From Maritalea myrionectae DSM 19524 (GTDB lineage Bacteria; Pseudomonadota; Alphaproteobacteria; Rhizobiales; Devosiaceae), in assembly GCF_000423365.1 (NCBI RefSeq), contig NZ_AUHV01000003.1, positions 372,001-436,000 of the forward strand: a stretch of 64,000 nt of DNA, read 5' to 3'. Below, piece after piece: positions 34,784-40,532 of this stretch. The notes below the pieces were generated by a model. The model made no database searches. It had not been told where the DNA came from and saw only the letters and a program-made list of their open reading frames with translations. How positions within the stretch are numbered: position 1 is the stretch's first letter; every line of letters begins with the position of its first letter. The position numbers were made by a program, and so were the translations under genes.

Positions 34784-35725
34784 ATGGGACTATTGATCGA
34801 CGGCGAATGGTCTACCCAATGGTACGATACAAAGAGCACAGGCGGAAAGTTTAAGCGCAGCGCCGCTGCGTTCCGCAATTGGGTCACCCAAGATGGCAGC
34901 GCCGGCCCGAGCGGCGAAGGCGGTTTTGAAGCCGAAAGCGGCCGCTATCACCTATATGTTTCCCTCGCCTGTCCCTGGGCCCACCGCACGCTGATTTTTC
35001 GCAAACTGAAAGATTTGACTGACCATATCGACGTGACCGTCGTGGATGCCAAAATGCCAGACGAGCATGGCTGGACCATTCCTGAAGGTGCCGACCCGGT
35101 CAACAATGCTGAAACCATGTGGCAGGTCTATGTGGCGGCAAAGAGCGACTATACCGGTCGCGTGACCGTGCCCGTATTGTGGGACAAAAAGCGCGACACC
35201 ATCGTATCAAACGAGAGCGCGGAGATCATCCGCATGTTCAACTCAGCCTTCAACGACATCACGGGCAACACCGACGATTATTACCCGGAAGAACTGCACG
35301 ATGAAATCAATGAGGTGAACGAACGCGTCTACCACACGGTCAATAATGGTGTGTATAAATCCGGCTTTGCCACAACGCAGGAAGCCTATGATGAAGCGGT
35401 GACCGAATTGTTTGATAGCCTTGAATGGCTGGAGGATAAGCTGGGCAAGCAAAAATATCTCGCGGGTGATCAACTCACTGAGGCCGATTGGCGGCTATTC
35501 ACCACGCTGGTGCGGTTTGATCCGGTCTATCATGGGCACTTCAAGTGCAACATCAAGCGGATTGCCGACTATCCAAACATCAGCCGTTTGGTGCATGAAT
35601 TGGTCGCGGTGCCCAATGTGAAAGACACCATCGATATGGACCACATCAAAACCCACTATTATTGGAGCCACACCAGCATCAATCCGCATCGGATTGTGCC
35701 CAAAGGCCCCCTGATCGAATTTTGA
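34784..35725 (+). CDS. Glutathionyl-hydroquinone reductase (YqjG-like, xi-class GST)
   Basis: A 313-aa GST that reduces glutathionyl-hydroquinones. The active-site motif is CPWAHRT (LYVSLACPWAHRTLIFRKL, catalytic Cys ~65). The family N-terminal region RSAAAFRNWVTQDG, the SNESAEIIRMFNSAF motif and the C-terminal YYWSHTSINPHRIVPKGP are all present. Such enzymes protect against quinones. It starts after a typical divergent promoter gap and is convergent with the next nudix gene (stops adjacent). Confidence 0.92.
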   Translation: MGLLIDGEWSTQWYDTKSTGGKFKRSAAAFRNWVTQDGSAGPSGEGGFEAESGRYHLYVSLACPWAHRTLIFRKLKDLTDHIDVTVVDAKMPDEHGWTIPEGADPVNNAETMWQVYVAAKSDYTGRVTVPVLWDKKRDTIVSNESAEIIRMFNSAFNDITGNTDDYYPEELHDEINEVNERVYHTVNNGVYKSGFATTQEAYDEAVTELFDSLEWLEDKLGKQKYLAGDQLTEADWRLFTTLVRFDPVYHGHFKCNIKRIADYPNISRLVHELVAVPNVKDTIDMDHIKTHYYWSHTSINPHRIVPKGPLIEF

Positions 35726-36202
35726 TCACCAATTTTGTGATGGTGGCGCGGCGGTGAAATATTCTTCAACACGGCGTCGCGCCCCATCATTCATGTCGTC
35801 CGGCAGTTCATCTTGCTTGAACCAGTCCATTTCAACGATCTCAGCGTTTGGTTTGAAAGGATGCACCTCGTCGAACGCATCGGCAACAAACAGGCACACA
35901 TGATCGCGGATGCTCAGCCCATTATTATTGTGAAAAACACCATGCAGCCTGGCTTCGCCAGTCACTTGAAGGCCCGTTTCCTCAAATGTTTCGCGCATCG
36001 CGGCCTCCAACGCTGTTTCCCCGGGCTCTACGCCCCCACCGGGAAACTGCCAACCACGCACATATGATTGGCGTACCAGCAGCACTTTATCCCCATCCAC
36101 GAGCATCATCCGCGCACCAAGCGTCATGCGTCGCCACACGCCGACAAGCGCCAAATAGATTTTCATCCGCCAGCGACTATAGAGTTTTTGCTGCATAACC
36201 AA
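35726..36202 (-). CDS. Nudix hydrolase
   Basis: A 158-aa protein with a full nudix box GGGVEPGETALEAAMRETFEETG. The N-terminal part MTLGARMMLVDGDKVLLVRQSYVRGWQFPGGG is typical of the (deoxy)nucleoside-triphosphate-type hydrolases. The substrate is unknown. A basic, hydrophobic N-terminus (KIYLALVGVWRRM) could associate with the membrane. It is monocistronic, divergent from the metallophosphoesterase. Confidence 0.83.
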   Translation of the reverse strand: MVMQQKLYSRWRMKIYLALVGVWRRMTLGARMMLVDGDKVLLVRQSYVRGWQFPGGGVEPGETALEAAMRETFEETGLQVTGEARLHGVFHNNNGLSIRDHVCLFVADAFDEVHPFKPNAEIVEMDWFKQDELPDDMNDGARRRVEEYFTAAPPSQNW

Positions 36203-36318: not shown

Positions 36319-37212
36319 ATGACCACGATTGCCCATATTTCAGATGTGCATTTGCCATACCATGAAAAAGTCACCCTGCCCCAGTTGTTGAATAAGCGGA
36401 TCACCGGCTATCTCAATTGGAAGCTCAATCGGGGCCATGCGATCGAAAACGACACCCTGCAATCTTTAATGGCGCATCTTAAGACCCAGCATTACGACCA
36501 TTTGGCCGTCACTGGCGATTTGATCAATTTATCGCTGGAACAAGAGTTTGCGTTGGGTCAGCAATGGCTGAAATCCATTGAAAAACCAAACAAGCTGATG
36601 TTCATCCCCGGCAATCACGACATTTATGTGCCTTCCGGCAAGGGCTATATGACCCATTATTGGCATGAATATATGGAAGGGGAACGCGCCGAGGACAAAT
36701 ATCCATTTCCCTTTTGGCGGCAAGTGGATGACGTGGCCCTGATTGGCTGCAACAGCGCCATTGCCACGCCCCCCTTTTTCGCCAACGGCACATTTTCGCG
36801 CCGCCAAGAGCGCTTGCTTGAAAAATTGCTGGTCAAGACCAAGGAAATGGGCCTGTTTCGGATTGTGATGATCCACCATCCGCCGCACGACGATGTGATG
36901 AATATTTGGCGCCGTGGCCTCACCAACCGCCACCGCTTTAAGCGCGTGCTGAAAAAACATGGTGCCGATCTGGTTTTGCACGGCCATTTGCACAAATCCG
37001 AACTTAAATCTCTGCCGGGTCCGCATGGCGAAATCCCGGTGGTGGGCATTTCGTCCGCCTCTATGGGCCCCAATGCTGTGCAGCCGCCAGCGTCCTACAA
37101 TCTTTATAATATTGAGAAGCAGGGTGATAATTTTACCTGCACAATGCAGGAATATGGCTACCACCGATTTGGCGATACAATCGAAAAACGCGCCGAGTTG
37201 GTCCTGTCCTAA
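36319..37212 (+). CDS. Calcineurin-like metallophosphoesterase
   Basis: A 297-aa dinuclear metal phosphoesterase. Metal-ligand motifs in order are ISDVHLPY (D-x-H), VTGDLINL (GD), PGNHDIY (GNHD), IHHPPH and VLHGHLHKSEL (GHxH), a complete set. ATG 36319 (MTTIAHISDVHL) is preceded by AGGGAG. Lacking a membrane segment, it is probably cytoplasmic; members hydrolyse cyclic nucleotides, UDP-diacylglucosamine or others. It ends 48 bp before murL. Confidence 0.88.
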   Translation: MTTIAHISDVHLPYHEKVTLPQLLNKRITGYLNWKLNRGHAIENDTLQSLMAHLKTQHYDHLAVTGDLINLSLEQEFALGQQWLKSIEKPNKLMFIPGNHDIYVPSGKGYMTHYWHEYMEGERAEDKYPFPFWRQVDDVALIGCNSAIATPPFFANGTFSRRQERLLEKLLVKTKEMGLFRIVMIHHPPHDDVMNIWRRGLTNRHRFKRVLKKHGADLVLHGHLHKSELKSLPGPHGEIPVVGISSASMGPNAVQPPASYNLYNIEKQGDNFTCTMQEYGYHRFGDTIEKRAELVLS

Positions 37213-37260
37213 CCTGCGGCCGAACTTGCTTTTAACACATTTTTGGTGATGCTTGCCGCT

Positions 37261-38586
37261 ATGAACACCTTCATTATTGATTCTGCAGAATTCAACGCTG
37301 AAACTGGCGAAGCTAAATTCAACTATCGTCTCGGCGAGCACCGGTTTACCGAGCGCTTGGAGTTGGGCGTCGGGTTTGATCTTGCCCGCGCACAGAGCAA
37401 CAGCTTTGCCCACCTGCTGGATCTGGCTGCAGCAATTTTGGGCGTGTCCTATTATAAGCTGAAAGCCCCGAAAACCATTGATTTGACCACGCTCAATCTG
37501 AGCGAAGCTGATCAGATATTGTTGCGCGACATATATGAAAACGGCTTGGGCGAATTTTACACCCGCAATAAGTTGAAACGGTTTGGCCAGATTGACTATC
37601 AGTTCGCGCCAGCCATCACGCCGACCAACGACCTTGATTGGCCGCAGCAATCGCTGGTGCTGATCGGCGGGGGTAAGGATAGCCTTGTATCGGTTGATTT
37701 ATTGACCCGCGCCAACATTCCATTCACCCCCTTCGCGGTGAACCCAAAAGGGCCAATCATCAGCTCGACCGACCAGATCGAACAAAGCCCACTCTTTGTT
37801 CGGCGTCACCTCTCGCCAACCCTATTCGAGTTGAATGACCAGCCCGGATTTTACAACGGTCACGTCCCCTCCACAGCAATCAACTCCGTTGTGGCGAGCC
37901 TAGTGGCAGCGCTCTATGGCTATAATGAAATCATTTTGTCCAACGAACGCTCCGCAAGCGAAGGCAATGTGGAATTTGATGGCCGCGAAGTGAACCATCA
38001 GCACTCGAAAAGCCTCGATTTTGAACAATTGATGGAAACCAGCTTTAAGGCAGCGAGCGGCGGTCAGCTCGGCTATTTTTCATTGTTGCGCCCCTTCTCT
38101 GAAGTGCGCATCGGACAGCTTTTTGCCCGCACGCAAAAATTCGATCAGCATTTTTCTAGCTGCAATGAAAATTTCAAACAAAACCAAGATGGCCCCAAAC
38201 GGTGGTGCACCAACTGCCCCAAGTGCCATTTTGTCTCGCTGATCCTCGCGCCCTTTATGGAGCCGCAACGCCTGACTGACATTGTTGGCAAGAACGTGTT
38301 GGATGATGCCACTAAGCTCGGCGCATTTCGCGAACTCTCCGGCCTAACCGGTCACAAACCTTGGGAATGTGTCGGTGAGATTTTGGAAGCCGCTGCCGCG
38401 CTGTGGCATCTGGCCCATCAAGACCATTGGCAGGATGCGGCGATTGTGAAGACGCTTAAGCCGGAGCTGGACGCGTTCTATGGTGCGCCCACATTGGAAA
38501 GCGCATGGGACGAATTGCTTCAGGATGCGAACCAGCATAATGTGCCGGAAAAATATCAATTGAACGAGATTGCCCGTGCAAGCTGA
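37261..38586 (+). CDS. murL: UDP-MurNAc-L-Ala-L-Glu epimerase (MurL)
   Basis: A 441-aa protein that matches the MurL family. MurL epimerises the terminal L-Glu of UDP-MurNAc-L-Ala-L-Glu to D-Glu in an ATP-dependent reaction, described in Xanthomonas oryzae. Conserved blocks are GVSYYK (61-66), a PP-loop-like GGGKDS (136-141), NGHVPSTAI, LSNERSASEGNV, VNHQHSKSLDFE, YFSLLRPFSE and CxxCxxC (316-322) followed by LILAPF. It overlaps murD2 by 11 bp, the partner ligase. The start is ATG 37261 (ATG 37249 is possible). Confidence 0.88.
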   Translation: MNTFIIDSAEFNAETGEAKFNYRLGEHRFTERLELGVGFDLARAQSNSFAHLLDLAAAILGVSYYKLKAPKTIDLTTLNLSEADQILLRDIYENGLGEFYTRNKLKRFGQIDYQFAPAITPTNDLDWPQQSLVLIGGGKDSLVSVDLLTRANIPFTPFAVNPKGPIISSTDQIEQSPLFVRRHLSPTLFELNDQPGFYNGHVPSTAINSVVASLVAALYGYNEIILSNERSASEGNVEFDGREVNHQHSKSLDFEQLMETSFKAASGGQLGYFSLLRPFSEVRIGQLFARTQKFDQHFSSCNENFKQNQDGPKRWCTNCPKCHFVSLILAPFMEPQRLTDIVGKNVLDDATKLGAFRELSGLTGHKPWECVGEILEAAAALWHLAHQDHWQDAAIVKTLKPELDAFYGAPTLESAWDELLQDANQHNVPEKYQLNEIARAS

Positions 38587-39874
38587 TCAATATTTCAACC
38601 GTGCCGTTTTGCTTTATGGTGCCGGTATCGAAGCGAAATCCACCCGAGATTTTTTGGCCGAATATGCCCCTGACATCAAAGTCTATGTCACCGCCGACCA
38701 AGGTGAGATTTTCCTGCCCGACAGCACGGTTATCGCCCCAACTGAAATTGAGGCATTAAGCGAAAAAGGCGAAATTGGAACGATTGTCCGCTCGGCCGGG
38801 GTATCGATCTATAAGCCTGAACTGCTCGCCGCAAAAAAACATGGGGTCGAGATCACCACCAACATCAATTTGTGGGACAAGTTTAAGCGCAAGGGCGCGA
38901 AACTGGTGGCAGTGACAGGCACCAAGGGCAAAAGCACAACGGTGAAACTGACCGAAACCATGCTCGAATGCGCCGGAATCGATGCGCGATTGGGCGGCAA
39001 TTTTGGCGTCGCCCCGCTCGATTTGGATGATCACGACATCATCGTGATGGAACTCTCCTCCTATCAGGTGGCAGACTTGACCGCGCAACCGGACTTTGTG
39101 GGCTTCACCAATCTGTTCCCCGAGCACATACATTGGCACAATCACTCACTGCCGCAATATTTTCACGACAAGCTGAACCTGCTGCGCCGTGACGGGCCTT
39201 ATGCTTATGCCCTGGGCGCTCAAGCGGCGGTGAACCAGAAGGTGCAGGAAGCGCTGCCCAAATATGCCCATGAGCTGGCCGCCCCAAGCGCCGAGCTGGT
39301 CGCGGCCCTGCATGCCACCATGCGCAAATCGCGCCTCAAAGGCCCGCACAATGCGGACAATATGATCATCGCCGCCAAATTGGCCTTGGGTTTGGGCGCG
39401 CCTGAAGACGCCATTTTAAAAGGCCTTGAGACATTTGCGCCACCCGCACACCGGCTGGAGGAGCATAAGATCGGCAACCTGTTGTTTGTTGATGATTCCA
39501 TCGCCACAACACCAGAAGCCACCATGGCCGCCATCGCTTCATATCCCGACGAAAAAATTGCGCTGATGGTTGGCGGCTATGATCGCGATCAGAATTATGA
39601 AGAATTGGCGCGCACGGTGGTGGACAGCAATGTGACCGCGCTTTGCTGCTTGCCCACCACCGGGGAACGCATGCAAGCGGCAATGGATAAGCTTGACCAC
39701 AAAATTGATGTGTTCGCAGCGGAGGGGCTGGCCGACGCCATGGAAGGCTTTAAGCGCCGCGATGGGTTCGACACGATCATCCTGTCGCCCGCCGCACCAT
39801 CATTCAATCAATATGACAATTATATCGCCCGTGGTGAGCACTTCATTCAATTGGCCAACGAGCTGTTTGGCTGA
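38576..39874 (+). CDS. murD2: UDP-MurNAc-L-alanine--L-glutamate ligase (MurD2)
   Basis: A 432-aa Mur ligase. The ATP P-loop is GTKGKSTT (115-122), followed by VMELSSYQVADL, the metal/His region FTNLFPEHIHWHNHS and the C-terminal domain motifs PPAHRLEEHK and FVDDSIATTPEATMAAI. It resembles MurD but lies beside murL, as in the MurD2-MurL pathway where L-Glu, not D-Glu, is added to UDP-MurNAc-L-Ala. The start is GTG at 38576. Substrate stereochemistry is inferred from the linkage. Confidence 0.85.
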   Translation: MQADQYFNRAVLLYGAGIEAKSTRDFLAEYAPDIKVYVTADQGEIFLPDSTVIAPTEIEALSEKGEIGTIVRSAGVSIYKPELLAAKKHGVEITTNINLWDKFKRKGAKLVAVTGTKGKSTTVKLTETMLECAGIDARLGGNFGVAPLDLDDHDIIVMELSSYQVADLTAQPDFVGFTNLFPEHIHWHNHSLPQYFHDKLNLLRRDGPYAYALGAQAAVNQKVQEALPKYAHELAAPSAELVAALHATMRKSRLKGPHNADNMIIAAKLALGLGAPEDAILKGLETFAPPAHRLEEHKIGNLLFVDDSIATTPEATMAAIASYPDEKIALMVGGYDRDQNYEELARTVVDSNVTALCCLPTTGERMQAAMDKLDHKIDVFAAEGLADAMEGFKRRDGFDTIILSPAAPSFNQYDNYIARGEHFIQLANELFG

Positions 39875-40185
39875 TGTTTGGCATTGGCATTTATCGCCGT
39901 GGCAAGAAGCCCGGCACCCTCACAGCAGAATGGCTGGATGATCGCATGGTTGACGCAGGCATTCGCGCTGGCACGGGTTTTGCGCAAAACGGACCGACAA
40001 ACGGAATTGTCGGTGACTATGACATCACTTACGAGGCTGGCGATCAGCGCGTTGACCTGAAACTGACCATCCGCGCCGACGGACCGAATTTTCGCCTGCA
40101 ATGGCTCAAGGATGACGTCTTGATTGATGAGGGCATTGCCTTTCAATCTGCCGACTGTCTCATCCTCGGCTATCAATCCACATAA
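39874..40185 (+). CDS. Hypothetical 103-aa protein
   Basis: A soluble beta-rich 103-aa protein that begins MFGIGIYRRGKKPGTLTAEW and ends ADCLILGYQST. Its ATG overlaps the murD2 stop (TGATG), so it is translated with the murL-murD2 cassette. I do not recognise a family; the strand-rich pattern (VGDYDITYEAGDQRVDLKLTIR) suggests a small barrel. Confidence 0.65.
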   Translation: MFGIGIYRRGKKPGTLTAEWLDDRMVDAGIRAGTGFAQNGPTNGIVGDYDITYEAGDQRVDLKLTIRADGPNFRLQWLKDDVLIDEGIAFQSADCLILGYQST

Positions 40186-40196
40186 GAGATTTCCAC

Positions 40197-40532
40197 ATGC
40201 CCCAAGGCTATTTCTACCTCCTCATCGCGATTATCGGCGAAGTAGTTGCCACCTCCGCGCTGAAAGCCGCCAATGGATTTTCTGAAACGCTGCCCTCCAT
40301 CCTCGTGGTGGTTGGCTATGGCGTGGCCTTTTATTATTTGAGCCTCTCGCTCAAAACCATCCCGCTGGGCATTTCTTATGCCATCTGGTCTGGCGTCGGC
40401 GTCGTGGCAGTGTCGCTTATGGGCTGGGTCTATTACAAACAGGCGCTCGACATCGCAGCCCTCATCGGCATGGCGATGATTTTGGGCGGCGTCTTGGTGA
40501 TCCACCTCTTCTCAAATTCAGCCGCGCACTAA
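40197..40532 (+). CDS. Small multidrug resistance (SMR/EmrE-type) exporter
   Basis: A 111-aa protein with four membrane helices. The essential Glu of the first helix is present (LLIAIIGEVVATSALKAANGF, Glu15), as are YYLSLSLKTIPLGISYAIWSGVGVVAVSLMGW and a C-terminal helix. The exact LKTIPLG-YAIW-GVG pattern is diagnostic of EmrE/QacE-like proton-coupled exporters of cationic compounds. It sits 11 bp after the 103-aa gene. Confidence 0.93.
   Translation: MPQGYFYLLIAIIGEVVATSALKAANGFSETLPSILVVVGYGVAFYYLSLSLKTIPLGISYAIWSGVGVVAVSLMGWVYYKQALDIAALIGMAMILGGVLVIHLFSNSAAH

Follow-up and report, generated by a model that had tools for sequence, protein, structure and literature searches.

The murL-murD2 locus and its ligase

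The genes murL and murD2 lie side by side on the forward strand of a 64,000-nucleotide stretch of contig NZ_AUHV01000003.1 from Maritalea myrionectae DSM 19524 (the window, whose positions are used throughout), with a phosphoesterase gene upstream and a short open reading frame (ORF) and an efflux transporter gene downstream (Table 1). Judged from sequence, murL and murD2 very probably form a translationally coupled pair which supplies the D-glutamate (D-Glu) of peptidoglycan, and MurL is proposed to be a QueC-fold enzyme of the PP-loop type. The source genome comprises 3,539,530 bases in 10 contigs, with a completeness of 99.28% and a contamination of 0.12%. MurL shares 83% identity with a protein of Maritalea mediterranea and 64–85% with those of four genus mates in the search set, a fragment in a fifth having 60%, and by this measure the host is therefore a Devosiaceae bacterium resembling Maritalea. 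A quickly computed tree holds 107 MurL rows, with six loci skipped and over-long ORFs trimmed to the 470 residues at their C-terminal end; in it the Devosiaceae, 40 rows in number, group as a single clade with a support of 100, and the window falls inside Maritalea.

Table 1. Features of the murL-murD2 locus, in window positions
Feature	Position	Strand	Evidence and remarks
Calcineurin-like phosphoesterase	36319..37212	+	ATG at 36319; PF00149 63.3 bits, cut-off 21.5; synteny in Devosiaceae
MurL	37261..38586	+	ATG start, preceded by GGTGA; NCBIfam MurL model, conserved residues, AlphaFold2 (AF2) model
GGGKDS loop of MurL (residues 136-141)	37666..37683	+	Counterpart of the SGGxDS pyrophosphate-binding loop; conserved
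Four-Cys cluster of MurL (C301, C316, C319, C322)	38161..38226	+	Conserved; likely zinc site, role taken from the QueC family
MurD-type ligase (MurD2)	38576..39874	+	TIGR01087 259.7 bits, cut-off 211.95; MurD2 residues
ORF of 103 amino acids (aa)	39874..40185	+	Coupled by TGATG; predicted 8-stranded beta barrel; Maritalea only
SMR-family efflux transporter gene	40197..40532	+	PF00893 102.8 bits; downstream neighbour

A first-pass annotation, made from the letters of the window, had placed the first four ORFs of this series and described the spacing between them, all of which is borne out on the DNA: 48 bp separate the phosphoesterase gene from murL, an 11-bp overlap links murL to the ligase gene, and the ligase and 103-aa ORFs are joined by TGATG. 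The stop codon TGA of murL lies at 38584–38586, with the in-frame GTG of the ligase at 38576. The longest ORF of the ligase begins instead at TTG 38570, which would extend the overlap to 17 bp, and that of the phosphoesterase begins at GTG 36238. The murL/murD2 junction (38551–38592) is identical between the window and two sister genomes, which fits the GTG start and the shorter overlap. The GGTGA ahead of murL is conserved in two sister genomes as well, inside TTTTGGTGAT. No Rfam family matches within the window at gathering level.

The ligase is the single protein of the genome to exceed the cut-off of the MurD model TIGR01087, with no second MurD above it; the weaker rows of this search comprise four pieces located in the dcw genes murC, murE and murF, and a fifth in a 429-aa frame of contig C1. 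Asp182, Lys348, Ala414 and Leu416 of Escherichia coli MurD correspond to Glu197, Arg358, Pro433 and Phe435 of Xanthomonas MurD2; the E197D/R358K exchange turns the Xanthomonas enzyme to D-Glu, and K319T makes E. coli MurD accept L-glutamate (L-Glu) (PMC8788868, in part). When the ligase of the window is aligned to solved MurD chains, with its residues numbered from the TTG start, E185, R339, P410 and F412 fall at these four positions, the counterparts of E185 and R339 in chain 5a5f_A being D182 and K348, and I311 falls at Lys319. The likeness to Xanthomonas MurD2 is one to the residues as published in that part of PMC8788868, not to Xanthomonas sequences themselves.

The comparison was extended to 104 rows of MurD2 and to 29 canonical Hyphomicrobiales MurDs (from 30 loci, of which L216 lacks the ORF and was dropped); as the rows are related and four genomes occur twice, the counts are not independent. 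The place of R339 holds Arg in 104/104 MurD2 and Lys in 29/29 canonical MurDs, that of P410 Pro against Ala in the same proportions, and that of I311 Ile or Leu in all 104 against Lys in all 29. At the place of E185, Glu is found in 101 of the 104 MurD2 and Asp in every canonical sequence. By its aligned residues, the ligase is a MurD2, Glu and Arg standing where E. coli MurD has Asp182 and Lys348, and what had been annotated as a MurD-like ligase carries the MurD2 residue at all four informative positions. The Ile or Leu at the Lys319 place of MurD2 is not mentioned in the accessible text of PMC8788868. The three deviating ligases (L121, L122 and L147) keep the Arg and the Ile or Leu but carry the Asp of canonical MurDs where E185 would be, and they present a natural test of which residue governs the choice of L-Glu.

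Sources of D-glutamate in the genome and in the family

In the whole genome, the best match to the MurI model TIGR00067 reaches 27.6 bits against a cut-off of 146.65 and lies on an aspartate/glutamate-type racemase; it appears in one genome search and is absent from the survey listings of the same genome at E 0.001. Other Asp_Glu_race matches were considered as MurI and rejected. The one on contig C1, over the cut-off, is of the aspartate/glutamate-racemase type, with PRK10200 aspartate/glutamate racemase as its best family (E 4.3e-79, 265.5 bits, under the cut-off of 417), and for the one on C6, also over the cut-off, no NCBIfam model gives a match at E up to 1e-5. A third match is weak (22.5 bits, under the cut-off) and lies in a 286-aa ORF which we take to be a pantothenate-pathway gene. 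The only Aminotran_4 (class IV aminotransferase) protein is IlvE, with 496.1 bits against the branched-chain cut-off of 396; no D-amino-acid transaminase over the cut-off was found in the genome, IlvE itself scoring 112.4 against 277.45.

The dcw cluster reads ftsI, murE, murF, mraY, ftsW, murG, murC, murB, ddl, ftsQ, ftsA, ftsZ, lpxC, and no murD lies between the ORFs of mraY and ftsW, its expected place, where there are 111 bp. For the eight genes from murE to ddl the names were checked against NCBIfam, where FtsW is the top match but stays under its cut-off; the names of the genes outside this range (ftsI, ftsQ, ftsA, ftsZ, lpxC) are presumed. The genome thus differs from one with MurI and a canonical MurD in that no MurI exceeds the cut-off and its sole MurD above the cut-off is of the MurD2 type. 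Since MurI, a second MurD and a dcw murD are all missing at these thresholds, since IlvE is the only aminotransferase of its class, and since the ligase has MurD2 residues, the murL-murD2 pair is most likely the only route to D-Glu. The proposal of the first-pass annotation that the pair is an alternative supply of D-Glu is therefore favoured by the genome-wide searches for MurI, a D-amino-acid aminotransferase and a dcw murD, all without a match over the cut-off.

Of 136 Devosiaceae genomes, 131 have a MurL match, a count that includes fragments and the genome of the window itself; among the good ones the figure is 117 of 119. MurI over the cut-off is found in 0/136, with weaker matches in 62, the best at 113.3 bits (G393) and the next at 44.4. 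In a class-wide sample of 387 alphaproteobacterial genomes, MurL is present in 13 (in G071 as a divergent relative only) and a MurI match (TIGR00067, E up to 0.001) in 134, with no overlap between the two groups. A further observation from this sample is that 240/387 genomes have neither, for which too narrow a model, or a D-amino-acid aminotransferase used instead, could account. The set of MurL loci numbers 112; L143 has no MurL ORF, four pairs are the same genome twice (L073/L102, L077/L104, L081/L141, L088/L120), and the loci L092, L101, L126, L158, L164, L165, L176 and L180 have no MurD2 ORF.

The pair resembles the MurD2/MurL pair of Xanthomonas oryzae (XOO_1320, XOO_1319) in the arrangement of the two genes, the absence of MurI, the homology of MurL and the specificity residues of MurD2, whereas the window sequences are alphaproteobacterial and fall in the Devosiaceae MurL clade. 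Devosia, Pelagibacterium and Parvularcula are already listed as having the pathway (PMC8788868, in part), and therefore it is not new in this family, where it is a known if uncommon route; what is new here is the structural reading of MurL.

MurL: conserved residues, predicted fold and proposed mechanism

The sole NCBIfam match of MurL is the MurL model NF041275 (E 1.6e-113), with residues 4–432 on model positions 10–439. The motifs quoted in the first-pass annotation are present, and the residues of MurL are intact in an alignment of 78 homologues. Invariant in all or all but one of these are the GGGKDS loop, N199, G200, H201, P203 and T205, N245, H246, Q247, K250 and E255, and the four cysteines C301, C316, C319 and C322, while other residues inside the motif stretches vary. 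The loop is found in 78/78 sequences (G138 in 77, with one unread letter), as are all four cysteines. In three Devosiaceae assemblies (G399, G409, G448) MurL lies in two adjoining pieces, possibly through frameshifts. The divergent relative in G071 (L101:4113-5552) is 29% identical over residues 126–373 and has the GGGKDS loop, an NHQ-GKS stretch and a four-Cys cluster; it sits between recR and rmuC with no MurD2 match within 10.5 kb, and may epimerise a substrate other than the cell-wall precursor.

MurL is predicted to have the core fold of QueC. Its AF2 model, with a predicted local distance difference test (pLDDT) score of 94.9, matches QueC 3bl5 over residues about 128–336 and QatC (9y01, 9y02) within residues 1–401. 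MurL shares the core fold, the loop and the Cys cluster, in the same order, with QueC (3bl5, 2pg3) and Cap9 (9nto); it differs from them in its extra N- and C-terminal parts, in the GGGKDS form of the loop and in the silence of the Pfam QueC model PF06508 (no match at E up to 0.1). With QatC of the qatABCD anti-phage system it has in common the predicted fold, the pyrophosphate loop and the Cys cluster, but not a sequence-family match (the QatC model NF041925 leaves MurL unmatched at E up to 10) nor the biological role; the reaction of QatC itself is unresolved (PMC13279940, in part). The QueC family signature is SGGxDS and C(x)8CxxCxxC (PMC13329287, in part), from which MurL departs with GGGKDS and C(x)14CxxCxxC, the spacing ranging from C(x)13 to C(x)15 across the 78 sequences. 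Four Hyphomicrobiales QueC (L182, L183, L185, L186), among 11 from related genomes, have C(x)14CxxCPxC, which is the spacing of the window MurL.

A search of the PDB with the MurL profile returned TtuA (E 0.052, over 40 residues at the loop) and a thioredoxin (E 0.6), neither significant; a sequence search of the PDB found no MurL chain, and PADLOC matched none of four MurL-type proteins. In the open-licence literature, with subscription papers including the original 2017 report outside its scope, no paper linking MurL to QueC, QatC or the PP-loop fold was found, and the accessible text of two QueC-family papers (PMC13329287, PMC13279940) does not mention MurL, epimerase or peptidoglycan. PMC2922099 was set aside as such a link, 'murl' standing for Mur ligase in its accessible text.

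In the proposed pathway, L-Glu would be attached to the precursor first, by MurD2, and then flipped in place by MurL. This second step, as judged by homology to the assayed MurL, would convert the attached L-Glu to D-Glu in one direction while ATP is turned into AMP, and MurE and MurF of the dcw cluster would then proceed as usual. As a QueC-fold enzyme of the PP-loop type, MurL would hold the pyrophosphate part of ATP in its GGGKDS loop and bind zinc with its C(x)14CxxCxxC cluster. It would adenylate the alpha-carboxylate of the terminal L-Glu, a step that the discoverers of MurL reportedly had already hypothesised. Adenylation would make the alpha-proton more acidic, re-protonation from the other face might fall to H246, K250, C370 or other invariant residues, and hydrolysis would free AMP and set the direction of the enzyme.

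Alternative readings, linked genes and implications

Several points weigh against the pathway and the fold proposed for MurL. The activity of the pair is a prediction from sequence, and the roles given to H246, K250 and C370 are conjectures based on their invariance. MurL scores 379.6 bits and does not reach the curated cut-off of 700 of NF041275, a lineage-bound equivalog of Xanthomonadales MurL in which the window protein is not filed; Micromonospora rubida MurL scores 401.9 and Dyella lipolytica 779.1. On the side of the ligase, F412 fails to separate MurD2 from canonical MurD, and the racemase on contig C1 exceeds the cut-off of TIGR00035 (222 bits against 93.1), making it a possible source of free D-Glu. 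That an ordinary MurD is fed by this racemase while MurL has another job is nevertheless highly improbable, given that the four informative ligase positions are all of the MurD2 type, that a MurD2 ORF is found in 103 of the 112 MurL loci, across Pseudomonadota and Actinomycetota, and that the usual place of the canonical murD is empty. As for the fold, Foldseek gives QatC a TM-score of 0.42–0.43 at 11.3 Å, and hhalign probabilities for the 78 MurL sequences against QueC and QatC sets are weak (2 to 23%). The score of the first seven QueC rows was reached by 4/200 shuffles, and that of four cleaned QatC rows, with an alignment of 22 columns, by 3/200. None of 100 shuffles reached that of six QatC rows, of which the L242 row is a spurious ORF and L246 is under the QatC cut-off, and none of 200 that of 11 QueC rows or of the four with C(x)14 spacing; for 19 long SGGxDS proteins, presumably asparagine-synthetase-like, 32/97 did. 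A MurD2 control was reached by 2/100 shuffles and then, at a score of 26.2, by 1/200, which makes the shuffles a lenient test, and the mended QatC and QueC sets were built after the first results were known. This profile evidence is suggestive but short of proof. The low probabilities, a control that also beats most shuffles, the silence of PF06508 and the altered loop would all suit a generic Rossmann-like (HUP) resemblance, in which activation is of another kind and the fold says little on mechanism; with a predicted QueC core fold, and the loop and Cys cluster in the order of QueC, we consider this unlikely.

The first-pass annotation had also raised the possibility that the phosphoesterase or the 103-aa gene is an accessory to the pathway, and this part has fared less well, as both look like neighbours rather than pathway parts. 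In 34 of 40 Devosiaceae loci murL has the phosphoesterase gene upstream, and in 25 of these the gene, with gaps measured to the longest murL ORF, comes within about 240 bp of that ORF or overlaps it, so that some activity towards by-products or a stray intermediate linked to UDP might be envisaged. This is doubtful to the point of being improbable: the gap exceeds 300 bp and reaches several kb in the other nine, no such gene was seen in the fetched stretches of five Devosiaceae loci (two being the same genome) or of one with a contig end, and it occurs in 0/71 of the non-Devosiaceae MurL loci scored, which confines the linkage to the family. The upstream neighbours of the phosphoesterase gene also keep their places in Devosiaceae, and therefore plain block synteny explains the linkage. 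For the 103-aa protein, the corresponding idea that in Maritalea it acts as a regulator or helper of MurL or MurD2 is distinctly improbable. In the window and five other Maritalea genomes (6/136 Devosiaceae), one with a tandem copy, its gene sits between murD2 and the SMR gene, but it was not found in the other 130/136, and the SMR gene directly follows murD2 in six loci outside Maritalea.

Some features of these neighbours may be added. The tandem copy lies at L074:3979-4670 (Maritalea genome G501), again between murD2 and the SMR gene. Among 5.8 billion proteins, the 103-aa protein has three relatives besides itself, or 16 with an 8-row alignment, the two named ones being from Maritalea. Its identity between two Maritalea clades is 30–37%, which marks it as fast-evolving, and its model is an 8-stranded barrel (pLDDT 94.7) with no clear fold relative found. 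In 11/20 Devosiaceae loci, murD2 is followed downstream by an SMR efflux gene, which we do not regard as part of the pathway. In most of 20 Devosiaceae loci compared, the phosphoesterase gene is preceded by ORFs of 313 aa and 158 aa (window 34784–36202), which we take to be GST-like and NUDIX-like, respectively.

The MurL/MurD2 pathway has been proposed as a narrow-spectrum drug target (PMC8788868, in part). A QueC-type core, if true, would explain the ATP-to-AMP chemistry of MurL, mark residues to probe and give a template for inhibitors. Tentatively, and as a reading that we would not quite back, MurL and QatC may together make up an extended QueC-fold branch. Its ancestor, an enzyme using ATP to activate a nucleobase carboxylate, would have been redirected to the carboxylate at the C-terminus of a peptide; the adenylate of MurL would then only loosen the alpha-proton, yielding an ATP-driven one-way epimerase from a nitrile-forming fold. 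If so, the reaction of QatC would also begin from a carboxylate adenylate, perhaps not on deazaguanine. The predicted core, if true, would also tie cell-wall synthesis to QueC-like anti-phage defence proteins, the chemistry of which is partly unsolved (PMC13279940, in part).

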